Assembly (NCBI RefSeq): GCF_037975245.1
Contig: NC_092564.1
Span: 22,345,984-22,409,983, forward strand
Direction of reading: 5' to 3'
Length of the DNA stretch: 64,000 nucleotides
DNA from: Apostichopus japonicus
Taxonomy: Eukaryota; Echinodermata; Holothuroidea; Aspidochirotida; Stichopodidae
In this document: positions 1-46,110 of the stretch, piece by piece
Layout: the number at the start of each line of letters is the position of its first letter
Position numbering within the stretch: the stretch's first letter is position 1
The notes under the pieces: model-generated
What the model saw: only the letters and a program-made list of their open reading frames with translations
The model's database searches: none
Told to the model about the DNA's origin: nothing
Made by a program: the position numbers and the translations under genes

Positions 1-900
1 TGACCTTTGGTGACCTCGGATCACATGACCGTTAGGTTTGAAAATATTCCCCTATACCATTTGCAACTTGTCCGAAAATATCAACCACGTCACACCTTGG
101 AACTGGGAGTTATTGCATTAAATGTCTGAAAATTAACTTTGACCTCTTATAACTTCGCACACGAAGGTCACACGGGTGTCAACCTATTGACATTTTTTAT
201 CAGAAGGTACCTTTGGTATCCAAATCTAGCATCAAAACCAAACATTTTCTTTTTTGCTCGTTTCCTCCCAAAATAAGCACATTTTTTCTAATGTGACCTT
301 TGACCTTTTGACCTTGGTTTCAGATGTAGTTTAATCTCCTGATTCCAAAAAACAAAACGACAAGTCTGTGCAACCATCCTAACTCCGACCGAAAAACTTT
401 GACCCCATATAACTTCGCACATAAAGGTCACACAGGGTCAACCTATTGACATTTATGTTCAGAAGGTACCTTTGACATCTGAAAATAGCATCAAAACTGT
501 AAAAATCCCCAAAAACATGTAAAGGTCACCAAAGGTCAAATTGAGGTCAAGGGTCACCCAGGTGCGGATCGACGATTGGATTACATTGAAGCAACTCCCA
601 ACCCTAACGGACATTTCGTTCTCAAGTTATCGCAAAAATACTAGTTTTTTATCATTAATTGACCTTTGTTGACCTCAGATCACATTACCGTTATGTTTGG
701 AAACGATGCCTTACCCCATTCACAACTACTCCCAAAATATCAACCATGTCGGACCCTGTCAACGGGAGTTATTGCTGTTTTTAATATATTGGTTTTTGGC
801 ATCTAACTGACCTTTGGTGACCTTTGCGGGCACCAAAAACAATAGGGATCTTCCTCTCACTATGGGCTATCCACCCAACAAGTTTCATCATGATACATCA
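1..900. repeat. Diverged TGACCTTTG-type tandem repeat
   Basis: The first ~130 bases (TGACCTTTGGTGACCTCGGA onward) recur in diverged form from about 661, giving a period near 660 bp. Inside it, a block around 133-240 (TTGACCTCTTATAACTTCGC) recurs around 396-500, a nested period of about 263 bp. No open reading frame or gene signal is visible. This is satellite-like filler at the left edge of the window. Confidence 0.75.
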
Positions 901-937
901 TTTCCTTATTGAGATATCGTGTACACAAGCCAAGCGT

Positions 938-940
<3 letters not shown>

Positions 941-975
<35 letters not shown>
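941..975. repeat. (AC)n microsatellite
   Basis: A run of alternating A and C, followed by GCATACATG. A similar CA-rich tract sits at 11849-11881, on the other side of the putative 10.9-kb element. This suggests the element landed in one microsatellite. Confidence 0.9.
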
Positions 976-1178
976 TACATGTATAGGCTCCCAAATGGGG
1001 ACAACTGCTCAACACAGGAGAATTGGGGACATGATGATATAACTTTGTACTTCCTACTGCTTGCGTAAAATAGCTCTTAAATAATATTAAAGGTACCAGC
1101 TTAATACTAAAATCTGTTTCTTGTCCATTTTCTATGAATTATTGAACTTGGTTCTACACATACCATGTGGGGACACAC

Positions 1179-1346
1179 TGTGTCACCTAACTGGGGACTT
1201 GGTGTGTCACCTAACTGGGGACTTGGTGTGTCACCTAACTGGGGACTTGGTGTGTCACCTAACTGGGGACTTGGTGTGTCACCTAACTGGGGACTTGGTG
1301 TGTCACCTAACTGGGGACTTGGTGTGTTAACGAATTGGGGACTTTC
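1179..1346. repeat. 24-bp minisatellite built on GGGGAC
   Basis: Six exact 24-bp copies (TGTGTCACCTAACTGGGGAC plus TTGG) and one degenerate seventh. Further single TTGGGGAC motifs follow to about 1430. It lies in the left subterminal zone of the putative 10.9-kb element. Because 24 is a multiple of three, it creates repeat-encoded open frames on the plus strand that I do not regard as genes. Confidence 0.95.
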
Positions 1347-1439
1347 ATTAACTGGAGAAACCCAGTGTCAACTAATTGGGAACACACTGTATCGACCAAC
1401 TGGGGGCTCAACTGCAGTGGGGACAAACTTTCCTTGTGT

Positions 1440-2100
1440 CATGCAAAAGAAACAACTTGAAACAAACTGTGTAACATGTCAAAGCATCACCACACCAAAA
1501 TCAAAGGTGACTCAAAAATGGGGCAAATTCTTTGATTCTATGATAAAATTCTATTATTGCTATGAAGTAATTTGTTACACCAAAACATCCAATGTCTTTG
1601 CCCATTTAACACCTTCTCAACTTTAATATTTACATGGGTGGATTAAGGCAAGACGGTCCAAGGGTTTATAGTGCATTCATTGAACACATTGAATAGTAAG
1701 AAGTAGCAGTATACACACAGTGCATGATGCACAATAAAACTTTATTAACTGAAACTTTCAACAAAAAAGGTGCATTCTACAGTTTTCAGGAATTCCTAAA
1801 ACAAAATGTTTTGACTGATTGCTTTTATGTCTGTTGCCTGGTAAAATACAGTTTGCAGACATTTCCCTATAAGAATAGCATAGTTAAACTGATGCTGTAC
1901 ACTACCAGTATTTGTACTATATATATGCAAATGGAAGTGTGAGTACAGTACTTCAATTTCAGTCTAGAAGTGAAACAATTTGATATGAAACATACAGAAG
2001 CATTAAAACTGCTTCTCAACAAATAATGCTCAAAAATAATTAAGCTGTGTACCCCTACATTAAAGATCCCAACCAAACTGTTTTCTAAAACAGTTCCCAT
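1440..2100. other. Stretch without recognised gene
   Basis: Nothing gene-like is seen. It lies 3' of the minus-strand SET-recombinase gene and could hold its 3' untranslated end, but I see no decisive polyadenylation site. Confidence 0.4.
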
Positions 2101-2103
2101 GAC

Positions 2104-3185
2104 AGACTAGAAAGACTGTGGCATTTGTTCCTGAGCTCCTTTGTGCATGAATGACAACAATTAAATCTGTCTAACAATCAACAAACATGAATTTAACAAA
2201 CTAGTAATAAAACATTAACCAAGAGCACTAAAACATATTCACTTTTATGCCAACATCAGGCTAGAACTCAAAAGGCAGTCAACATAGCTACTTAGCAGAT
2301 TAGAAAAGTCTGTGGCATTTGTTTCTGAGCTCCTTTCTGCAATGCTCGACAACAATTAAATCTGTCTAACAATCAACAAACATGAATTTAACAAACTAGT
2401 AATAAAACATTAACCAAGAGCACTAAAACATATTCACTTTTATGCCAACATCAGGCTAGAACTCAAAAGGCAGTCAACATAGCTACTTAGCAGATTAGAA
2501 AGTCTGTGGCATTTGTTCCTGAGCTCCTTTCTGCAATGCTCGACAACAATTAAATCTGTCTAACAATCAACAAACATGAATTTAACAAACTAGTAATAAA
2601 ACATTAACCAAGAGCACTAAAACATATTCACTTTTATGCCAACATCAGGCTAGAGCTGAAAAGACAGTCAACATGGCTACTTAGCAGATTAGAAAATCTG
2701 TGGCATTTGTTCCTGAGCTCCTTTCTGCATGAACGACAACAATGAAATCTGTCTAACAATCAACAAACATGAATTTAACAAACTAGTAATAAAACATTAA
2801 CCAAGAGCACTAAAACATATTCACTTTTATGCCAACATCAGGCTAGAGCTGAAAAGACAGTCAACATAGCTACTTAGCAGATTAGAAAATCTGTGGCATT
2901 TGTTCCTGAGCTCCTTTCTGCATGAACGACAACAATGAAATCTGTCTAACAATCAACAAACATGAATTTAACAAACAAGTAATAAAACATTAACCAAGAG
3001 CACTAAAATATTCACACTTTTATGCCAACATCAGGCTAGAGCTGAAAAGACAGTCAACATAGCTACTTAGCAGATTAGAAAATCTGTGGCATTTGTTCCT
3101 GAGCTCTTTATTCCATAAACAACAACAATGAAATCTGCCTAACAAGTCAATAAACATGAATTTAACAAACTAGTAATATATGAAC
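2104..3185. repeat. 193-bp minisatellite, about 5.6 copies
   Basis: Units start near 2104, 2297, 2490, 2683, 2877 and 3070 (e.g. GCAGATTAGAAAATCTGTGG), with a last partial copy. Copies are very similar, with small indels and substitutions. The array starts about 20 bp beyond the stop codon of the minus-strand gene, so it would lie in its 3' UTR or immediate 3' flank. Confidence 0.92.
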
Positions 3186-3205
3186 ACAGTAAAGTTTGAC
3201 CAATT

Positions 3206-3829
3206 CTAATACCACTTTTTGTTAGCCCTTCCAGAGTGATTTCTTATGAAGTCTTTAATATTGGTCCACTTCCGTCCATCAAAACAACTGTACTTTTCCA
3301 TCACCCTATCAATAGCTGTCTTTCCAGGCAATTGGTTTAATGCTATTTCTCGTCTGAATTCCTTTAAAACTACTCTTTTCTCATCTTCTGTCCATACCCT
3401 CCTTTGGTATTTTCTCCCTGAAAGGACAACAAATATATACATTACTATGTGGTGCTTTTGAAAAATACACCTCAATGTTGCCATGTGATAGTTTACAATA
3501 TAAAGAAACAAATCACATCAAAATGTTTTGAGGTTGGTCTCCAGCATAAATTGCAATCTGTCTAGTATACTCCTCATATTTTGTTGTTTAAATAAAACTA
3601 GAAAATATTTATTTAAATGGTTTGTTTTATTTATGAACAATATTACCTTTCTTCATACTGGGTGGTTCTTCTCCTTCTGAATTAGTGCTTTCAAAAGTGG
3701 TGCCATTAGCTTGATGCAGAGACCCTACACTTTCCATGCTGCCCTCATCCCTACTTGTGTCCTCCTTCTCCTCTTCCTCCTCCTCATCACTATCATCTGT
3801 ATCATCAGATGATTCTATGTTGTCAATTT
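3206..3829 (-). CDS. Acidic linker and SANT/Myb-like terminal exons
   Basis: Exon 3829-3647 (183 nt) encodes residues 990-1050, an acidic, serine-rich linker with a run of eight Asp/Glu. Exon 3417-3206 encodes 1051-1120 and the stop. It contains RRVWTEDEK (W1059) and DGRKWTNIKDFIRNH (W1101), a three-helix SANT/Myb-like pattern with tryptophans about 42 residues apart. Similar C-terminal domains follow tyrosine-recombinase-like domains in other animal predicted proteins as far as I recall. A role in DNA or histone binding is inferred. The phase-1 junctions on both sides fit the rest of the model. Confidence 0.75.
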
Positions 3830-6800
3830 CTGAGGAAATAAAATCAATGACTGCTTAGATTTGTAGTACAGACAGCACCACATAAACGTAGCGTAGCAAA
3901 CACAGGTTAGATAACGACAAGTACCATTCCTTGCATCAAAGACACACCTTAGCCCACAGAATTACAACTTGATAAACACTTTTTAAAGTATCACCTTAGA
4001 TGATTACTAATTATTTAAAAAGGCAATTAAATTATTGATATATCAAGTTTTACAGTTCTTTAGCAGGTATACATTCTCCTCACTTCAGTATTTCTAATGT
4101 AAACTTTACAAATCAGCTTCAAAAGTCCTATTTGAACTTTAGCTACTAATTTAACTTATTGTACACTCATTTAAATATTGAACTTCATTGCAAAAACATG
4201 AAATAAATTCCTGCTTTTTACCATCATCTTTGTCAACTTCAATTTGGTCCAAAGACTTTCCTGCCAAGCTTGCTGTTGACCCTTTCTCCAAAGAGAGAAG
4301 TAGCTTAGATATTTTTGCCACCTGCAGCGTTGCATCTGGTAAACGGTAGAACTCTCTGTGAACTCGTACATCATGTCCCATAAACTTAGCCAGCATGTCA
4401 AGCTCGTTATCTTTAAGATTAAGGACTTGGCTGATTGTGGCAACATGCTTCCTCAAGCTTGTGGAACGAAGTTGGGTTGGATTCTTCGCTCCGCAAAGAG
4501 TTGCAAACTTTCGAATGCAATCAGCACCCCTAATGTGTGCATCTGAGTTGGATGTAGCACAAGGAAACAAAAACTTATTGTCAGGGTTGACACCTACTTT
4601 CTGCCTGAGGCTAATGAGTAAATCCACAGTGTCTTCCATCTGTTTTGTTAGCAGCACTGGTACAGTGTTCCCTTTCTTTCCGATGATTTCAATCCTTGTG
4701 AAAGTTTTGCAAAGTTCCCTTTCAAACTTACTGAGGCACGCAGAGATGTAATCAGCTTTCTCTGATGAGGCTTTCATGTTGTAATCATCAATAGATACTT
4801 TGGAAATTTCTCCTTGCCTTCTTCGGTTGAATAACATAATTTGTGTCAGAGTTACCTCATTAAGTACCTTCCAAGAAGCTGCTGGGTCAGACTTTCCATC
4901 CTCCAACTTTCTTTTCTCATCATGCCCAATTTTTTTCAGGAAGTTTGAGAGAGTGCAAATGTCTTCCGTGAGTGGTAGTCTCTTAGGGGCATTCCTCTTG
5001 TTTTCAGTCATAGTGCGATGAGCATGACGGGAGACTTCCTCAGTCCACTTCATTTGGCATAACTCAAAGAAATTGGTTGACTGGTTGACAATCTCCTCAT
5101 CACCTTGTTTCAACCCTTGTGCCTTGACAAGGAGTGCACACTTCTTAATACTATGTCCAAGCTTCAGTGCTAAACTTGGAACTTTGTACAGATGTGTTTG
5201 TGTGTCAAAACCAGCCACATTCCTCGCAGCTGTCACAACATGGTCAAACTTAGCTGGATGTATGAAGTCAGCAAGTTCATTATCTGGCTCATTACTGATA
5301 AGTCGTATCTCAATCAGTAGTCTGGCCATCTCTCTTAACTTGGTTCGTATGTAATTTTGTTGTTCTTTGTCATGACCAAGCTTTAAGAATTCTTTCTTTG
5401 CCAGCTGACAAATCAGACTATCACTCTTCAAACATCGTGACACGTCATCACCTTTTAACTTGCTAAAGAGTTCATCAAGCTGCAGGTCTGAATTGTTGAG
5501 GCTTGGAAGGAGAAGTTTTCCATTTCTGACTAGTTCTCCCCTCCTTCTCTTCAGTTTGTTTGAGGAAGCCGGCTCCAAATGACATGTGTGTTTGTAAAGG
5601 AACCTCTTCGCATAGTATCCATAACAGGTTGGACAGGGAATGAAGTTTGATGGCTCAGTGATTTCATTTGGCCTATACCTGACAATTAACTCTCCTGATC
5701 CCTGTTCCAGCACCTTGCAATTTTGTAGGTGATTTCCAAGATTCCTGATTTTGGTGAGCTTTGCTGCCTTCAGTGTGTGATGATCCTCCTGCATCCAGTC
5801 AGCCACTGCAGATTCATTGCAATGGGCTGATCGAAGATGTCTTGGTAGCTTAGCTTGAGGTATTTCGCAGTAAAAACAAAACTGTCTTTTGTCATATACT
5901 CTACAATCCTCATTGCTTGTAGACTTCACGGTAATCTGTGATGTTCTTTCATGATCGGTCTGCTGCTCATCCACTACCTTAGAGTCATTCTCCTCTGGCA
6001 AAGTCAGATTTGGATACAAAACATATGAAATATTTGAATCATCAGATGGTGGCACAACATCATCATCTTCATCTTCATCATCACTGTCGTCATTGTCGCT
6101 GTCAAGCTCGGAGGCAGAATGATAAGACTGTGTATCTGCAAATGTAAATCAAGTAAACAGGAGAGTAAAGCTGTCACTTAGTCATGGTGGCAGCAGCAAT
6201 AAAAGAACTTACTTTGAATGCAGAGTTCTCTGAAAAGATGTTAAGGATATAAACAGACACTAATGCATCTACAACTTATATGAGCTGCAACTATTCAACA
6301 ACGACATAGCCATGCCTACCATATCAAAACATGCTAAAATGAGTTAGTGTTTTTACCTTCAGGAACAGAATGTTGCTCAACGAATCGTTGTTGTGGGTCT
6401 GTTAACGTCACATCTGGATGCCCGACGCAATTATGCTTTGATCCAATAACATTGTTAGTTTTGTCTAGCTCTGTTAATATGGAACTGATAGTATCCAGAA
6501 GATGCTCTGGTTCAGGGAGGGAGTTACATGGAACAGCCTCTACACAAAGAAAAACAGCGAGAAAAATGAAGCAAAGTAATTTACTTTCAATACAGAATAA
6601 TGATGACCTGTAACTAGAGCAAAAACAAGAAATGAAGTATTTAGAACAGCTTCTAGAAAAGCAAAAACAATGATTGGATATTGCTGATATCCAAGCTTAT
6701 TTAAATAGATGTCTTACAACATGAATCTACATACTACTAGCTGCAATTTTATACGGGAAACACAGGTAATTTTCTTCACCAATAATGGCATGAGTATATC

Positions 6801-9800
6801 ATTGGACAACAACTATGGTCTCCAGTTATCTAAACATTGTCAAAATGAGAGACTGACAGCAATGATTTTCACTTGCAAACCATTCCATTGTCTAACTGCA
6901 ATTTAATCCTTACTTGATGATCATTGTAACATTTCAGCTTTTTTGCAAAATACAAGTTTTTGCATTAAGTTGATAGAGACTTCATTTGTTAAACAAACCT
7001 CACCAGGTTGTCATGTGCACTTATTTAAGAAGCATACTTATAGTCAATGCTACATTAGATAAACTCTGCACAACTTTTAAGTTTGTACCTTCTGAAATTG
7101 ACTTTCCTTCAACAAAGGCTGGTTGTTCCTGTGTTAACACGAGATTTGGATGCCCATTACAATCCTCTGATGATCTCATAACATCATAAGTTTTTTCTAG
7201 TTCTGCAGATGTCGAGCTACAAGTAGGCATGGGATGTTCTGAGTCAGTGAGGAAGCTACGTGGAATTACTCCTGCAAGAAGAAATGAGAGGAAAAAGGAG
7301 GCAAAATAAGTTTGCTCAATGCAGAATAATATGTGAACAAACCGCAAACATAGAAGGAAGTCTACCCTCTTACACTTATTTCATTCATCTTGAATCTACA
7401 TGCAACCATTGACAATTTGACACAAAAATTCAAACTATCAGCAGTTGAGCAGACATATCGATATGACAACCATGTTCTATAATCATCAAATTATCCATCC
7501 ACCTTCCCTACTTAATGTGATATATTTAGCTCATTGCACTTTTGAAGGTCTCGTCACCAGACTAAATCAGTGGAACAACCTCACTACATTCCAAAAACTT
7601 TGCTACTGCATCTCTGAACGTGGTGACTTCTCTACGTTAATTACTACAATTTATCAAACACATGAAGTTCATAAGTTTGTACCTTCAGAAACCGAATCTG
7701 GCTCACAAACTGCCAGTTGTTCGTCTGTTGACATCAGATCTGAATGTCTAACCCAATCTTCCACTGTTTTCATAACATCAATTCTTTTGTCTGGCTCCTT
7801 GGATGCTGGACTGCAAGTAGCCATCTGTTCTTCTGTAGCAGTGTAAGAGTAACATGAAACAGCTTTCACAAAAGCAAAAATATTGTTTACTGCAGTGTAT
7901 TAAAATGCATTCACTCCTACAATAAATTGTAAAACCATTCCTGAGATGGTAAACAGATCTTGAAAATGTTTCACATTCTAAATTCCACTCAATTTCAAAC
8001 TGAAACAATGTCTCAGTCTTTCTCATATTTTAAGTTTGAATTTCCCTCATTGTTCGTCACCATAGAAATAATTGTTGCAACACACTTATTATGTGAACAT
8101 GGCAAGAAAAATAATAAGCCAACATTTTGCTCTTTCCTTCCTTCTTAGATCCTGACCGTTATATATCCTGCAAATTAGTGCACCTCACTGTAATGTGAGG
8201 TCTTACATGAAGTACAATGTGTAGAATTTAATACATCAAACATATCACATAGGCCTACAGATAATTATGCCTCCGCAAAAAAAATATAAAGTCAAAAATA
8301 TAAAGGATCACTATCTGTCAAACATATAAAAAAAATACATGATAAGACACTGCTGAAAATACAATGTAATTCTAGTACCTTCAGATGGAGCATTTTCTCC
8401 TTCTCGGACACGGCTCTCAAAAGAAACCTGTTGAAGAAGCAGAACACGTTCTTATTACAAAATATTAGCATTGTAAACTTCAGTAAATAGAAATAGATCA
8501 ATTATATGGGTGGATTCAAACTTAATCTCCTTTCTCAAGACATCTATAAGGCATTACAGTGCCACAGAGCACGCTCAATACAGTTACCCATTCAAGCAGA
8601 CCCTCTCATAGTATACTCATAGTGAACACAAAATGAATGCATGAAAATTTTTGTAATGAAATTATATGGGTCAAATGACTGGGAAATGTTTAATAACAAC
8701 TGTGCAAAGAAATTGAGGCTAGAGAGAGTTCCACATAGCAACCTCAGGGACATAAGTCCTGCACTTAAACACCTGACCTATCTAGCTGAATGAAGGTAGA
8801 AAGATTCCTTACTAACCACTCTCTGAAGATTTCAGTGAGAGCCACAGTACAGTGCCTTCTCTAAAGGCATATAGCCTAGGGATCACAACTTATTTACATT
8901 TCATAAATCAACCAAACAGGGTCCCTGAACCCTGTTCTGGCCTCAGTTCATTTGAAATTGCAACATTTTAAAATTTTATGGAGGAGCTTGATGGTGTTTA
9001 AATTCCATATTTTCTAAAAAATGGCACTATCTGATAAGGTAACTCTGCAATGTTCTTTCCTACAAACAGCCTTACAAGTGAAATGATGATTTTAATAGTT
9101 ATGCTGGCTGACACATTGGAATGTTGGAAGTTTCTGAATGTAAGCTCCTCTCTTGGTAATGGAGGGAGGGAGTTTGGGGGGGGGGGGTAAATTTAAATTG
9201 CACACTAACCTCTTTCACCCATGGAAGATTGATGATTCCATAGTCATACAGAATTTCAGTGTCTTGCTTTATATCCTTGGTTGCAAAAAGACACAGTACT
9301 GGACTGTTGTTGTAAGTCTTAACGAAGATTTTGGAATTTATTTCCCCACCTATGCCATGATTAACAAGTCTTCCAAATTTTGGACCTGTTTGCGGTTCAG
9401 TGTTTGCATCAACACTAGAAATAAAATGAGAATGGATAAGAATTGGTAAATCACCTGTTTGTATATCACATTGTAACTAACCAAAGTTGATAGCTACTTT
9501 TTTTTTAGTTTGTCATTGCAATCACGTACCTGATGCAAGGAGGGTATTGAAAAATATCGGTGAATGTAAAAATATACATTAATTCTCTGACACTTCAAAC
9601 TGGACATCCAACATATTGTAATTATTTCTCCACTTTGGCATTTTTAGCTTTGTTTCATCTTGAGGAATTGCCTTTACTTAGAGCAAATCAAAAAGCTTAC
9701 CACCATTTCTTCTCTCTGTACTTAAAAAAGTAACGAAATACGCTTGGTTCTTCTATTTCCCTTTGTTCCCCTTCCTTGGCTGTGATCAGTTCCCCCGAGT

Positions 9801-10181
9801 AAGTTACCAGAAACCATCCCATTTTGAATGACTGGGAAGTAAACAGACTCCTTCCTGAAAGAGGCAATGCGTTTTTTTGAAAAGTAATGAAATCCATCAC
9901 TATTCACTATCACTAATTGATATCACTAATCTCCTGTAGTAATAACTGCTGCCGAATACTTACCTTAACCACATCTAATAAATTTAACTTGACTGCATCA
10001 TACCTCAAAACCCAACAATAGTTAAATAAAGAAGGACATTTACACTTGTAATTCAAATTGAAAATTTAAGTGAAAAAGTACCTTTTGTTGGTGATATCTT
10101 GACCAAAAACCCAGGTGGATCTTCCTGCATATATTTATCAAAACTAGGCCCTGGGCCGTGCCTTGTGCTACGTCTTGACAT
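3206..10181 (-). CDS. SET domain - zinc finger - tyrosine recombinase-like - SANT-like fusion protein (10 coding exons)
   Basis: Minus-strand exon model: 10181-10082, 9854-9701, 9414-9210, 8427-8379, 7862-7683, 7271-7089, 6539-6357, 6135-4222, 3829-3647, 3417-3206. Every intron is GT-AG and phases agree throughout. The total is 3363 nt, i.e. 1120 residues plus stop, with no internal stop. Order of parts: SET domain (about 20-153), short linker, three duplicated ~61-residue exons (170-351), two C2H2-like fingers (438-456, 519-537), tyrosine-recombinase fold (about 740-970), acidic linker (990-1045) and a SANT/Myb-like C terminus (1051-1120). The start is the first ATG of exon 1, eight bases after a splice acceptor, so an upstream noncoding exon is expected. 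By family knowledge, SET domains methylate lysines with S-adenosylmethionine and tyrosine recombinases cut DNA through a tyrosine. Activity of either here is inference. I cannot assign a gene name. Confidence 0.85.
4222..6135 (-). CDS. Tyrosine-recombinase-like exon with two C2H2-like zinc fingers
   Basis: One 1914-nt exon encodes residues 352-989. It opens with an Asp/Glu-rich stretch. Zinc-ligand sets CFYC...H....H (C438, C441, H451, H456) and CPTC...H..H (C519, C522, H534, H537) follow. The recombinase fold shows NRRRQGE (R791), a beta-hairpin lysine in GKKGN (838/839), SLRKH (R913), MGHD (H939) and REFYR (Y948), with typical helix spacing of the integrase C-terminal fold. The first His of the usual H-x-x-R box is not His here. 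The open frame runs past the donor to a stop at 4151, but splicing at 4222 gives in-frame continuation into the acidic exon. Splicing from 6135 is also required, because there is no ATG at the start of the open frame (GTG at 6055). Confidence 0.85.
6357..7862 (-). CDS. Three duplicated 60/61-codon exons of the fusion gene
   Basis: Exons 7862-7683 (180 nt), 7271-7089 (183 nt) and 6539-6357 (183 nt) are all phase 1-1 and encode related peptides. Shared positions include a hydrophobic start (AV/VI), S/T-rich centre, D/E-K, DV or NV, a G/R-H-P/S core, T-x-x-Q and an end in S-[VI]-[SP]-E-G. A small exon at 8427-8379 also ends in APSEG, which may be a fourth, shortened relative. Symmetric phase explains why duplication kept the frame. 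No known domain is recognised; the segment may be a flexible spacer between the SET and recombinase parts. Confidence 0.8.
9210..10181 (-). CDS. SET-domain exons of the fusion gene
   Basis: Three exons (10181-10082, 9854-9701, 9414-9210) encode residues 1-153. The N terminus MSRRSTRHGPGP is followed by PPGFLVKISPTKGRSLF, corresponding to the KGRGVF entry of SET domains. YSGELI lies at 52-57, WCVDAN at 84-89, GRLVNH at 99-104 (the N-H cofactor-binding motif) and EILYDYG at 138-144 (the catalytic-tyrosine motif). The order and spacing are those of a complete, roughly 120-residue SET domain and are closest, from memory, to the KMT5A/SETD8 type. GRGVF is GRSLF here; other key residues look intact, so an active methyltransferase is possible. 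Junction phases are 1, 2 and 0. Confidence 0.85.
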
Positions 10182-11235
10182 AATTTTGTCTGGAATCAAG
10201 AAGAAGGTTGATAGTGTCCATTACATATTACCCAGGGAGCCCAAAAAAGCAGACAGCACAACTTTTTCCAAACTACGTAATTCAGAATGTTTATATAATA
10301 TATATCAACATTAAAATTTAACGACTAAATTCTAAGGAGACTTAATTATCATCTTTACAATTATTAAGTAAGGTGACTGAATCCAACAATGAGCTCATAG
10401 CATAACTTGGCCAAGCTACTAAATTTGAAAAGATTATACTAATTTCATGACTATAACATGATGCATCTAATCTTATGATAACATGTCACACCACAATATT
10501 CCCCTTGAAAAGAAAGGAAGGTTCAATTACCTCAGAAGTGCAATACATTTGCTCCATTCATTTCACATAGCTTCAATTCTAGTATCTGTAACACATATAC
10601 ATGCAGCTATAACTCTTTAAGATTAACTTTTCTATACATGGGCATCCTCAATATTCAGGTTACATAAAATTGAATAAAAAACAATAGAATGAAAAGTCTG
10701 GTCATCGAATACGAAAAAGCACCATGCAGACAGAAAGTCACAAAAGCGGTATACATATCTTGCAATGCCAAAATTATGACAAAATGTCAGTACTGCTTCC
10801 AACGTTTCAGTGTTTGATATGATGAAGTGCCCAACAACTGCCTCATGATTTATCCAAGGGGCAGACATGATTTAGATCCTACTAACAATAACATCCTACT
10901 GAGATCTAAATTAACTAGCTAAAAAAGTAACTAAACTTTCCTTATGTGTATAATGCTGCAGCTATCATCTGAAGCCTGACTTAAAACTAGTGATGTTACA
11001 CACAAACTGGCCTAACCCATGTGGTATAATGTATTAGATCATATAGACCTACTGTTAATTTCCTACTATGCACACACTATGCTAGTAAGTAGTATGTATG
11101 CACAACTGGATCCTAACCTATATGACATTAAGTACAATGGTAGCACATGTGGCTTCCACAATGTACAGTAGGCTAGTCTATTAGAGGCCTATAATAGAAG
11201 TTCATAAACGAACGAACTGGAAATATACAAAAATA

Positions 11236-11848
11236 ATTGGGGACACTGCACAGGATTATGATAAGTAAAGAGTAACTTACTCACTGGATTTATTTTCCTT
11301 CAGAAGATTCTGTCTCCGTCTCATGAAAGCTGGATGTTATTAGCTAGCTGCATATTGTAGTTATCTCAGGTACAGTAGGTACTACAGTTATCTTTGTGGC
11401 AGTACATGAAATTCGAACACAGTAAGCATGCTGCAGTACAGTGTGTATGTTTGCTGATCTCACAGCAATGTAAATTGGGGACATGGTCCACTGTTAGTAT
11501 TGTCAAAGTAGACACACCCCATATGATTGGAGCTCATCAATTGGGGACATTTGGTCACTAATTTAACCAGCTTCAAGCAGTCACATGACATGAAATTCTT
11601 GCACATAAATGGGGACAACACCTTGACACACGCCCCACCAGTTAATGACACAAAGTGACACAGCTAGGCTGTAATGAATGCACCCAATGGGGACTGTCAC
11701 AGATATTGCTCAAACTTTAAAAAATACTTTCATTTGGCGGGAACTTCCAAAATCTGCACTTAACCCAAACGGGGACGTCCCCAATTGGTAGTATGTCCAC
11801 ACTTGGAAGGTGTGTCATCATGTAAATGTCCCCAGTTGCCAGCGGGTA
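11236..11848. repeat. Right subterminal GGGGAC cluster
   Basis: AATTGGGGACACTG (~11236), AAATTGGGGACATGG (~11473), CAATTGGGGACATTT (~11540), AAATGGGGACAAC (~11609), CAATGGGGACTG (~11687), an inverted pair GGGGACGTCCCC (~11771) and inverted GTCCCC (~11829). This mirrors the cluster at the other end of the 10.9-kb block. Such clustered subterminal motifs are known transposase-binding arrays in several DNA-transposon groups; their function here is inferred. Confidence 0.75.
11275..11281 (-). other. Candidate splice donor of a 5' noncoding exon
   Basis: On the minus strand ATCCAGTGA|GTAAGTTAC offers a consensus donor upstream of the acceptor at 10190. It could end a noncoding first exon of the SET-recombinase gene, which would place the promoter within the right GGGGAC-rich end. 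Only the donor consensus supports this. The region 10200-11270 otherwise shows no coding signal. Confidence 0.35.
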
Positions 11849-11926
11849 CATACGCACACGCACACACACGCACACACACGCCAAGTTGAACGCATAGGTT
11901 CCTTGCTTTGCAAAAAGCAAGGAACC
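11849..11926. repeat. CA-rich microsatellite followed by a 12-bp-arm hairpin
   Basis: CA/CG-rich alternating tract, then GGTTCCTTGCTT, a 6-base loop and AAGCAAGGAACC at 11897-11926. It is outside the right end of the putative element and may be the terminus of another repeat that the element disrupted. Confidence 0.7.
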
Positions 11927-12530
11927 AAAAATGACAAAAGTGCTGCAAGACTCGTGCAACATCCTACGTCTATTGTGACATAGAACAACTGTATCTGTTT
12001 CTTTATTTTAGTACAAGCTGTTTCAAATACTTTGTTTTATAAAAATCATCCAATTTCCCTTCTACTTTTAATACTAATGCTTGACAACCATTGACAATAA
12101 CAGATAGCCTCACATCTAGTAACTTTTGAAATCTTGGGGATCTCAAGACAAAATGACATTCACATGGGAAAAAAAGGTTACATAAATCAAAGTAAACCAT
12201 GCTTTGGCATCCACAGTTGTAGCCTAGCAGTATTTGTTGGTCAGGCAATCAATTAAAGGTAGACTATTGTTAATCCAATTATCGACAGGCTGTGAATGTT
12301 AACTATGGTGAAAATACTTGGGAATTCCTTTTCATGTGATATATTTTAAGATTGGGCAATGCCTAGCTGGTTGGAAATGGTACTTGGGAAGCAATATAAA
12401 ATCATATGGTATAGGAGCAGAGGGTTTGTGTAGGGTGTTTTCGTGTGTTCATGACATGTCAACCATCGAATCATGATATATTGCCTGCACAGTCAGGCAG
12501 TGCAATATTCATTAGAAGGTATTTCCAAAC
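11927..12530. other. Stretch without recognised gene
   Basis: An 81-codon minus-strand open frame (12248-12003) has no recognisable motif. Nothing else is supported. Confidence 0.3.
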
Positions 12531-14994
12531 GAATATCTCACCATGCACAACTGGTATTGATAAACACCAAAAACGTTTGTTGCTACGATGTATTGTTAAT
12601 GGGCATAAAGGCCTCTAAGCTATATCAATTATTTTCAACAAAAATCAGCTGAAAGTTATGTTGCATTGGCTTCAAATATGCCAGATACTAAAATATGGTC
12701 ACCTATGGTCAAAATTATTAAATTGTTTTTGTACCACCTGTAGGAAATTTACCTCACTGGGACATTCTGTCCTTTTGCATGTTCTTTTAAAATGTCTGAG
12801 AAAAATTTGGAGATTATAAAGACCTCAAGGAAAGTACTTCTTGATGTCACAATACAACTTTGTGGCCTATACAGACTACCTTCAAATGACATGCTGCTGG
12901 TCACACTAAGTATCAGGCTTAACATAAATACTGGGAAAGGAGGCTGTGTGAGAACCAGTTCTACTACACTCAGATTGTTTAGTGCTAGTCAAAGTATCTC
13001 AATGACTATTGTTCAAATGTTGGAAAAGAAAAAAAATCAATTAGGGCTAATTGGGAAATGCAAGCTGAAGCCAGTAAAATCATATTTGTACACAATTCAC
13101 ACAACTTGGTATCAGTTAACATTTCTCTTGCTTTTGTCTACATATTTGGCCCACCTTTTCCTTTGACATTAAATAAATATTCTTTGCACTAAAAGTTTGG
13201 TCTTGACACAGTCAACACTATAATCACCTGAATCCTTTACTGGGGAGCATCCAAGGCCAGTCAACACTGAAAATAAAAATACACATACATACACATACAT
13301 ACATATACATGTATACACACATATACACACACACACGCATACATATACACACATATATATATATACAAAACGTACAAGTGCAGCTGTCTACAATAAATTA
13401 TCCAGATTACCATTTTGTAAATAAAATAGCAGCAAGATAAATAAAACTATAAAACTATCTATACACATTAATTCTGAATTTTGGTGTTATTGCTTTGTTT
13501 CTCAGATTATACCTAGTAGTTTCTCAAAGTAGAGAGTTAAGTTCGGTATGCAAAGAATGTCTGTCATTTCTCTGTATGCAATTTACACTTCTAATGAACT
13601 AATTTTTAGTAGCATTGTTTACAGTACTCATAAGAAAGTTAAAATCTATATTAAAAATTCTAGAAAAATACTTTAAAAAAAAAAAAAATTCTCTTATTAT
13701 CTTTAATTAGTAAAAAGTGATACCAAGCAGAAACAGCATATATTAGGTGTGGTATGATATTGGAATATCTCACCATGCACAACTGGTATTGATAAACACC
13801 AAAAACGTTTGTTGCTACGATGTATTGTTAATGGGCATAAAGGCCTCTAAGCTATATCAATTATTTTCAACAAAAATCAGCTGAAAGTTATGTTGCATTG
13901 GCTTCAAATATGCCAGATACTAAAATATGGTCACCTATGGTCAAAATTATTAAATTGTTTTTGTACCACCTGTAGGAAATTTACCTCACTGGGACATTCT
14001 GTCCTTTTGCATGTTCTTTTAAAATGTCTGAGAAAAATTTGGAGATTATAAAGACCTCAAGGAAAGTACTTCTTGATGTCACAATACAACTTTGTGGCCT
14101 ATACAGACTACCTTCAAATGACATGCTGCTGGTCACACTAAGTATCAGGCTTAACATAAATACTGGGAAAGGAGGCTGTGTGAGAACCAGTTCTACTACA
14201 CTCAGATTGTTTAGTGCTAGTCAAAGTATCTCAATGACTATTGTTCAAATGTTGGAAAAGAAAAAAAATCAATTAGGGCTAATTGGGAAATGCAAGCTGA
14301 AGCCAGTAAAATCATATTTGTACACAATTCACACAACTTGGTATCAGTTAACATTTCTCTTGCTTTTGTCTACATATTTGGCCCACCTTTTCCTTTGACA
14401 TTAAATAAATATTCTTTGCACTAAAAGTTTGGTCTTGACACAGTCAACACTATAATCACCTGAATCCTTTACTGGGGAGCATCCAAGGCCAGTCAACACT
14501 GAAAATAAAAATACACATACATACACATACATACATATACATGTATACACACATATACACACACACACGCATACATATACACACATATATATATATACAA
14601 AACGTACAAGTGCAGCTGTCTACAATAAATTATCCAGATTACCATTTTGTAAATAAAATAGCAGCAAGATAAATAAAACTATAAAACTATCTATACACAT
14701 TAATTCTGAATTTTGGTGTTATTGCTTTGTTTCTCAGATTATACCTAGTAGTTTCTCAAAGTAGAGAGTTAAGTTCGGTATGCAAAGAATGTCTGTCATT
14801 TCTCTGTATGCAATTTACACTTCTAATGAACTAATTTTTAGTAGCATTGTTTACAGTACTCATAAGAAAGTTAAAATCTATATTAAAAATTCTAGAAAAA
14901 TACTTTAAAAAAAAAAAAAATTCTCTTATTATCTTTAATTAGTAAAAAGTGATACCAAGCAGAAACAGCATATATTAGGTGTGGTATGATATTG
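12531..14994. repeat. 1232-bp head-to-tail tandem duplication
   Basis: 12531-13762 and 13763-14994 appear identical, including a 14-A run, the CA/TA microsatellite and both spurious open frames. The junction is seamless (TATTGG|AATATC). Each copy contains part of a decayed reverse transcriptase (minus strand) at its right end, so the duplication happened after that element inserted. Identity is so complete that it must be very recent, or else an assembly duplication. Confidence 0.95.
13275..13368. repeat. CA/TA-rich microsatellite (first copy)
   Basis: Alternating ACATAC and ACACAC runs ending in (TA)n, inside the 1232-bp duplicated unit. It is repeated 1232 bp downstream. Confidence 0.9.
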
Positions 14995-44867: not shown

Positions 44868-46110
44868 AACGAGTAGAGAGTACGCAATGCAGATCCTACC
44901 CTAGGAGTTGACTGAGGGTACGCAATGCACACCCTACCCTGGGATATAGACTGAGGGTACGCAAATGCAGATCCTACCCTGTGAGTAGAGGGTACGCAAT
45001 GCAGAACCTACCCTGGGAGTAGAGGGTACGCAATACAGATCCTACACTAGTGTAGGATCTGTTAGGGTCTGCATTGCGTACCCTCCCAGCTGGGAGAGAC
45101 GGGTACGCAATGCCGAACCTACCCTGTGAGTAGAGCGTACGCATTGCAGATCCTACCCTAGGAGTAGACTGAGGGTACGCAATGCAGAACCTACCCTGGG
45201 AGTAGAGGGTCACCATTGCAGATCCAACCCTGGGAGTAGACTGAGGGTACGCAATGCCGAACCTACCCTGTGAGTAGAGGGTACGCATTGCAGATCCTAC
45301 CCTGGGAGTAGGCTGAGGGTACGCAATGCAGAACCTACCCTGTGAGTAGAGGGTCACCATTGCATATCCTACCCTGGGAGTAGACTGAGGGTACGTAATG
45401 CAGAACCTACCCTGTGAGAAGACTGAGGGTACGCAATGCAGAACCTACCCTGGGAGTAGAGGGTCACCATTGCAGATCCTACCCTAGGAGTAGACTGAGG
45501 GTACGCAATGCCCAACCTACCCTGGGAGTAGAGGGTACGCAATACAGATCCTACACTGGGAGAAACGGGTACGCAATGCCGAACCTACCCTGTGAGTAGA
45601 GGGTCACCATTGCAGATTCTACCCTAGGAGTAGACTGAGGGTACGCAATGCAGAACCTACCCTGTGAGTAGAGGGTACGCATTGCAGATCCTACCCTAGG
45701 AGTAGACTGACTCGGGTACGCAATGCAGAACCTACCCTGTGAGTAGAGGGTACGCATTGCAGATCCTACCCTAGGAGTAGACTGAGGGTACGCAATGCAG
45801 AACCTACCCTGTGAGTAGAGGGTCACCATTGCAGATCCTACCCTAGGAGTAGACTGAGGGTACGCAATGCAGAACCTACCCTGGGAGTAGAGGGTCACCA
45901 TTGCAGATCCTACCCTGGGAGTAGACTGAGGGTACGCAATGCAGAACCTACCCTGTGAGTAGAGGGTCACCATTGCATATCCTACCCTGGGAGTAGACTG
46001 AGGGTACGTAATGCAGAACCTACCCTGTGAGAAGACTGAGGGTACGCAATGCAGATCCTACCCTGGGAGTAGAGGGTACGCAATGCAGATCCTATCCTGT
46101 GGTTGATTAA
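44868..46110. repeat. 72-bp (2 x 36) minisatellite
   Basis: Alternating half-units GAGGGTACGCAATGCAGAAC / CTACCCTGTGAGTAGA and GGGTCACCATTGCAGATCCT / ACCCTAGGAGTAGACT. The 72-bp higher-order unit gives 24-residue repeat frames on both strands. There is no start context or domain, so I do not call a gene. Confidence 0.95.

Follow-up and report, generated by a model that had tools for sequence, protein, structure and literature searches.

The window analysed here, a 64,000-nucleotide stretch of the Apostichopus japonicus genome (NC_092564.1, assembly GCF_037975245.1), carries a gene that joins a SET methyltransferase domain to a putative tyrosine recombinase (YR). The carrier of this gene is almost certainly a mobile element, probably a Crypton-like YR DNA transposon whose transposase gene bears a methyltransferase domain of its own. 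The initial annotation had implied a single host gene belonging to some uncharacterised chromatin system; given defined ends, empty sites and a genome-wide count of at least 72 YR loci, that view gives way to one of a mobile element.

Splice sites rebuild the gene as ten minus-strand exons, with GT..AG at all nine junctions and agreeing phases, and the predicted product has 1,120 residues (Table 1), just as the initial annotation had modelled it. Pfam PF00856 (SET) matches residues 34-144 of this protein (E 1.9e-14), and the closest match of the SET part in the Protein Data Bank (PDB) is KMT5A/SETD8 (E 2.5e-17), with a SETMAR SET structure also among the PDB matches listed. The SET core motifs NH (LVNHG) and YDYG (LYDYG) are present in the window protein as well as in copies on chromosomes C8 and C19. 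By these similarities, the N-terminus is classed as a KMT5A/SETD8-type SET domain.

The exon that contains the YR was aligned with 23 relatives found elsewhere in this genome, all diverged (29-63% identity), and R791, K838, R913, H939 and Y948 are invariant in all 24 sequences; the key residues that had been reported for both folds are thus indeed kept. Pfam recognises the SET domain in the window protein, and neither a recombinase nor a Myb/SANT model is matched there up to E 10. PF00589 is matched by 4 of the 24 family members, the best (E 8.6e-05) being below the gathering score (22.8 vs 27.1 bits), and by the window exon not at all in the same 24-member search; no recombinase appeared among the matches of a PDB profile search with the YR, and an NCBIfam search with five members gave nothing relevant. 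Profile comparison (hhalign) with five Escherichia coli YRs (XerC, XerD, FimB, FimE and IntS) gave an E value of 0.0023 at a low probability of 12.6% (10.7-12.6% across runs). The catalytic part alone scored 20.3, whereas the best of 100 column-shuffled controls reached 10.3 and a reversed alignment 2.5, and the five catalytic residues fall in register with R148, K172, R247, H270 and Y279 of XerD. Single-sequence fold prediction of the YR domain alone was poor, with a predicted local distance difference score (pLDDT) of 50.9 and a predicted template-modelling score (pTM) of 0.41. One departure speaks against the assignment: the histidine of the HxxR motif is replaced by threonine (position 910) in 23 of the 24 sequences and by serine in the remaining one. 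With that departure stated, we call the domain a YR because the five catalytic residues and the profile comparison fit, and on this footing the assignment appears sound.

Each ligand of the first zinc-finger motif (C2H2) is present in 23 of the 24 sequences, the missing row being truncated, and those of the second (C2HC) in all 24. Downstream of the YR, the Myb/SANT-like tail recurs in other subfamilies (57% and 40% identity); since it is conserved in them, exon 10 is real, and only the name SANT is unproven, for no Pfam model matches the tail alone up to E 10. Ahead of the zinc fingers lies a fast-evolving linker. At two loci (L016 and L018) the open frame there is enlarged by an in-frame minisatellite (repeated SSCERPDKSLSSVPDMDGGVN), and other subfamilies have different repeats at this place. 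Exons 5-7 of the window gene, judged by eye, resemble a triplicated unit of about 60 residues.

A search of the 671.6-Mb genome with the YR exon gave 248 candidates, of which 69 were scored, and a second query with a diverged member gave 203 candidates, also with 69 scored, and added three loci; all counts are lower bounds. The YR exon has at least 70 match rows, and both queries merged, with broken copies joined, yield at least 72 YR loci. Near-identical copies (99-100%) are found on different chromosomes, namely C4 (the window), C15 and C7, and five YR copies with identical scores are spread over C9, C13 and C16. In the coding sequence (3,363 nt), only three substitutions and one 3-base indel separate the window copy from that of C15; relative to the window, the C7 copy shows 26 substitutions and has lost four bases of exon 5. 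Members of a subfamily of 33% YR identity (loci L067-L070, on C13 and C9) agree at 99.6% from one chromosome to the other throughout the 15 kb read. Direct repeats of about 770 bp (82%) stand on both sides of the gene in this subfamily. Introns are kept, which argues for a DNA element rather than a retro-copy. No relatives were confirmed in viral contigs or prokaryote genomes.

The SET part has at least 109 match rows in the genome (231 candidates, 150 scored). All 64 SET-YR pairs within 25 kb have the SET upstream on the same strand, with none in the three other possible layouts (72 YR loci), and a SET lies upstream at 41 of these loci (within 25 kb, among the matches listed). At seven loci the match to the second SET exon and that to the YR are reported with open frames of equal length, uninterrupted by stops: 951 aa on C3, 1429 on C16, 1498 and 1484 on C15, 1169 on C4, 1096 on C17 and 909 on C19. 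The C3 frame, read directly, matches Pfam SET. With SET and YR in one open frame at seven loci, the fusion does not depend on splice prediction alone, and the initial claim that both belong to one protein is upheld. Among the matches listed, 45 of the 109 SET rows are without a YR partner (many places on C4, C14, C19 and C20); these are possibly either a second SET-bearing mobile family or rows whose YR copies were left unscored. One SET group matches residues 98-154 only, at about 45% identity, and its members are often paired some 3 kb apart.

Similarity between copies breaks off sharply. The C15 twin of the window copy and the C7 element were read end to end (Table 1), and an element of the 63%-identical subfamily, about 23 kb long, was read at its ends. 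The left terminus is AACCAGAATGAAAACA(C/T)TTCATGGTTCCTTGC and the usual right terminus GGTTCCTTTGCTTT(C/T)AGCAAGGAACC, then AAAAA; in the window copy the palindrome contains a variant. We read 20 left and 23 right termini and then ten more of each (29 left and 32 right distinct); they were picked by similarity to the ends, so that their common motif reflects selection; what is informative is that the flanking sequence becomes unrelated at one and the same base in every terminus read. In the genome, the exact right-end 31-mer occurs 198 times and the exact left-end 34-mer 254 times, as against no occurrence of either reversed control. Right ends with a G six bases out (n=48) have AAAAA in 43 cases, AACCA in two, AACAA in one and ATAAA in two. 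Both end lists are complete for C1-C6; there, 26 of the 36 exact left ends have an exact right end as partner no more than 30 kb away, and the pairs span 1.6-3.0 kb in 24 of the 26 cases, 4.8 kb in one and 26 kb in another. Nineteen elements of 2.2-3.0 kb, read at both ends, are too short to hold the gene. The element ends thus recur about 200 times, mostly bounding non-autonomous elements of 1.6-3.0 kb. The interval C7:178173-184661 holds at least 60 head-to-tail left-end 34-mers (60 of the 100 left ends listed), often about 70 bp apart, and is a satellite made of the transposon end. A 13.8-kb stretch at C12:20650549-20664340 is bounded by both element ends and has no YR match among the matches listed. 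In the 47% subfamily (C8/C19), the sequence read stops short of the upstream end, and repeats obscure the downstream one; the ends of the 33% subfamily were not reached within the 15 kb read. Other than the exons of the gene, no open reading frame (ORF) longer than 162 aa was found in window 1-11931, the part scanned; the C15 twin extends about 1.8 kb beyond this part on the left.

The joined flanks of 21 insertions (6 + 15) were searched for empty sites, and matches spanning the join were obtained for one of the six and three of the fifteen; two of these last three candidates were read. The 12.7-kb C7 element has a paralogue in which AAAAA joins the left flank to the right flank, and all 100 flank bases agree. 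Two paralogues of one 2.6-kb element likewise have the flanks joined by the A-tract, again with 100 identical flank bases, and a further one has four A. At both sites read, the target is an A-tract, insertion brought neither duplication nor loss, and two A leave the exact border ambiguous. Between the AACCA of both termini and the AAAAA of the empty sites, AA alone is common. A further candidate (C5a, AACAA) was, at 79% identity, too diverged to decide the core, and a genome search for right-end/left-end junctions with two bases between them found none.

Which enzyme moves the element is the point on which the alternatives part. A YR exon lies within 20 kb of seven of the 143 placed right ends, always in the layout that puts it inside the element (random expectation: mean 0.15, maximum 3 in 1,000 sets), a count that includes the three copies which defined the ends and one list ranked by similarity to the C15 element. 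In a stricter count (pattern-listed ends, the C7 copy left out), a YR is near 3 of 123 ends, belonging to the 63, 46 and 42% subfamilies, which random sets (mean 0.13) reached once in 5,000; one of these three ends, on C17, is followed by AACCA rather than AAAAA. The alternative is that a Helentron/HINE-type rolling-circle element captured the SET-YR gene and is moved by a Rep/Helicase encoded elsewhere, the YR protein being either a passenger or the enzyme of an older element. This is rather unlikely. It would account for the palindrome that directly adjoins the A/T-tract at one end and whose 10-mer reappears, inverted, 22 nt from the opposite end, and for the A/T-runs at the borders, the microsatellite beside one end, the lack of a target-site duplication (TSD) and the small non-autonomous partners, largely as in Helentrons (PMC4067079). 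Moreover, the genome has open Helitron-type frames of up to 2,489 aa, and a SET ORF has been reported in a Phytophthora proto-Helentron (PMC4067079). However, while YR genes accompany the ends in the right layout, the proximity of Helitrons is within chance: a Helitron_like_N match lies within 20 kb of 2 of the 123 ends, both on repeat-rich C17, against a random mean of 0.41, and this was reached in 369 of 5,000 sets. Nor does the window part of the element contain an ORF of Rep/Helicase size, and for two of the 50 Helitron_like_N matches the flanking sequence (four pieces, in which the Helitron ends are not fixed) holds one GGTTCCTT octamer and no other end motif tested. C17, with 32 of the 50 Helitron_like_N rows and several interrupted YR copies, is an unusually repeat-rich or composite contig. 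On the strict count, the Crypton-like transposon carries slightly less weight, and the rolling-circle element slightly more, than on the wider one; the former still seems the probable explanation.

Two other explanations are far less plausible. SET and YR could be neighbouring genes within one element that were joined only in our model; the linker is poorly conserved and the SET and YR matches are in different frames at most loci, but the frames shared at seven loci, including the one on C3 that matches Pfam SET, and the agreement of splice phases at all nine junctions make this very improbable. A single host gene is ruled out by the 70 YR match rows, and a host gene family expanded by ordinary duplication, or domesticated, is hardly more credible: long ORFs are kept in many diverged subfamilies, but ordinary host genes would have to be reconciled with dispersed near-identical copies that have defined ends, with empty sites in repeats, with small partners sharing the same ends and with the existence of interrupted or frameshifted copies.

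Several observations nevertheless weigh against a Crypton-like transposon moved by its own SET-YR protein. There is no clear purifying selection among recent copies: window and C15 differ by no synonymous and three nonsynonymous changes, window and C7 by six and 20, and the ratio of nonsynonymous to synonymous rates (dN/dS) in the latter pair, based on few changes, is 0.90 overall, against 0.61 for the YR exon. Among the matches listed, no SET is near 31 of the 72 YR loci, and in the window protein the glycine of the KGRG motif of KMT5A is a serine. The empty sites fit YR recombination through an AA overlap and Helentron insertion at TT equally well. The terminal anatomy resembles that of Helentrons (PMC4067079) and is unlike a classical YR core, in which two inverted arms surround 6-8 bp. 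By eye, the terminal 50 bp or so on the right and, with one difference, about 86 bp on the left are common to the 63% subfamily and the C15 copy; the ends of this subfamily are thus far more alike than its protein, and ends and genes may have been exchanged. Finally, both the contrast between YR and Helitron and the link of the ends to the YR genes rest on few independent cases.

For the Crypton-like transposon that we favour, the following mechanism can be envisaged. The zinc fingers and the Myb-like tail would bind the element ends. The YR, which is quite likely the mobiliser of the element, would excise it as a circle with the predicted junction GGAACC-AA-CCAG, and this circle would be recombined into an A-tract through the short AA overlap. 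That the SET domain acts on chromatin for the element is a more doubtful suggestion. It could methylate nearby nucleosomes at the donor or the target, plausibly at H4K20, H4K20me1 being the mark of its closest known relative, KMT5A. Such methylation might either open the donor or target chromatin or, perhaps, tie movement to replication.

Table 1. The SET-YR gene, the element that carries it and two further copies (window positions, unless a chromosome is given).
Feature	Position	Strand	Remarks
Mobile element, part inside window	1..11931		left terminus outside window
24-bp tandem array	1179..1344		inside element
193-bp tandem array, 5.6 units	2103..3178		inside element, just past stop codon
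Exon 10	3206..3417	-	Myb/SANT-like tail; stop codon 3206-3208
Exon 9	3647..3829	-	acidic linker
Exon 8	4222..6135	-	acidic stretch, two zinc-finger motifs, putative YR domain
YR catalytic segment	4346..4819	-	R791..Y948
Zinc-finger motif 2	5582..5635	-	C519, C522, H534, C536
Zinc-finger motif 1	5822..5878	-	C438, C441, H451, H456
Exon 7	6357..6539	-	linker
Exon 6	7089..7271	-	linker
Exon 5	7683..7862	-	linker
Exon 4	8379..8427	-	
Exon 3	9210..9414	-	second half of SET; LVNHG, LYDYG; Pfam and PDB matches
Exon 2	9701..9854	-	first half of putative KMT5A-type SET; Pfam and PDB matches
Exon 1	10082..10181	-	ATG at 10181; residues 1-33
Right terminus of element	11897..11926		inverted repeat GGTTCCTTGC..GCAAGGAACC
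A5 tract at insertion border	11927..11931		border meaning from other insertions; unrelated flank from 11932
C15 element (twin of window copy)	C15:17377309-17391006		13,698 bp; read end to end
C7 element	C7:5062558-5075219		12,662 bp; read end to end

Just outside the element, the window has an exact 300-bp direct repeat (12531-12830 and 13763-14062) with a spacing of 1,232 bp; since identical ORFs recur at that spacing, the duplication may be longer. The 2-kb stretch of highest GC content in the window contains a tandem array of 17 copies of a 72-bp unit (44871-46101). Rfam gave no match on the window.

If the fusion is what it appears to be, it may have a bearing on some published gene families. 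KMT5A-like genes number as many as 65 in Hydractinia, 24 in Hydra and 61 in Strongylocentrotus, with one in Nematostella; those of Hydractinia and the sea urchin mostly have an N-terminal SET, and their C-termini are conserved between the two (E < 3e-43; PMC10368294). They have been interpreted as expanded H4K20 methyltransferases, and 22 are activated early in Hydractinia (PMC10368294); the words 'recombinase' and 'integrase' do not occur in the main text of that paper. An N-terminal KMT5A-type SET, long proteins and dispersal are common to these genes and the window family, whereas KMT5A itself has a C-terminal SET (PMC10368294) and shares with the window protein the type of SET domain, not its N-terminal position or the fusion to a recombinase. 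Since the layout is that of the window gene, we propose that the KMT5A-like expansions of Hydractinia and the sea urchin may be this same transposon family. Going further, there could be an ancient, animal-wide class of YR transposons with an H4K20-type methyltransferase of their own, the KMT5A-like genes of Hydractinia genome activation and of sea urchin embryos being such transposons, which would move during the resetting of embryonic chromatin and perhaps leave methylation visible to the host; to this broader proposal we give almost, though not quite, as much credence as doubt. If true, mobile elements would underlie the expansions of H4K20 methyltransferase genes that have been published for embryos of cnidarians and echinoderms.

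With respect to known elements, the likeness to Cryptons is that both are DNA elements that encode a YR and have no reverse transcriptase, terminal inverted repeats or TSD (PMC3212892), the window element showing retained introns and no second long ORF in the part scanned; the absence there of any ORF of reverse-transcriptase size also sets it apart from DIRS/Ngaro elements, which combine that enzyme with a YR. Kojima and Jurka (2011, PMC3212892) reported Cryptons from animals, the sea urchin among them, and the microsatellite-targeted CryptonV is known from cnidarians (PMC8869645). Compared with the Cryptons of PMC3212892, the window element adds the KMT5A-type SET, the Myb-like tail and the terminal palindrome, and at its empty site there is an A-tract instead of the AACCA common to both termini. 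DUF3504, the YR type of animal Cryptons (PMC3212892), is not among the Pfam families matched by the 24 members at E 1; we therefore call the element Crypton-like and place it outside the animal Crypton group. In the available text of PMC3212892 'methyltransferase' does not occur, and 'set' occurs twice as an ordinary word. Helentrons and HINEs likewise have palindromes, inverted subterminal repeats, T-runs, T-rich insertion without a TSD and small non-autonomous partners (PMC4067079). The likeness of our termini to theirs holds in reverse orientation, with the palindrome beside a T-run; the ATGAAA/TTTCAT stem on the left was seen by eye, and the computed fold paired that end otherwise. The differences are the Rep/Helicase ORF, not found in the window part of the element, and the inner repeat, which lies 22 nt from the far end here and at a reported 38-60 bp in Helentrons (PMC4067079). 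No published SET-YR transposon was found among the titles and abstracts listed, a search outside which most subscription papers and Repbase Reports fall, so that a CryptonV-type entry is possible. In SETMAR, a single primate gene, a SET domain is fused to a mariner-type transposase; there too, SET is combined with a DNA transposase. The difference is that the fusion described here sits in a multicopy element, and a fusion of transposase and histone methyltransferase in that setting would be a direct case of a transposon possibly shaping its own chromatin.

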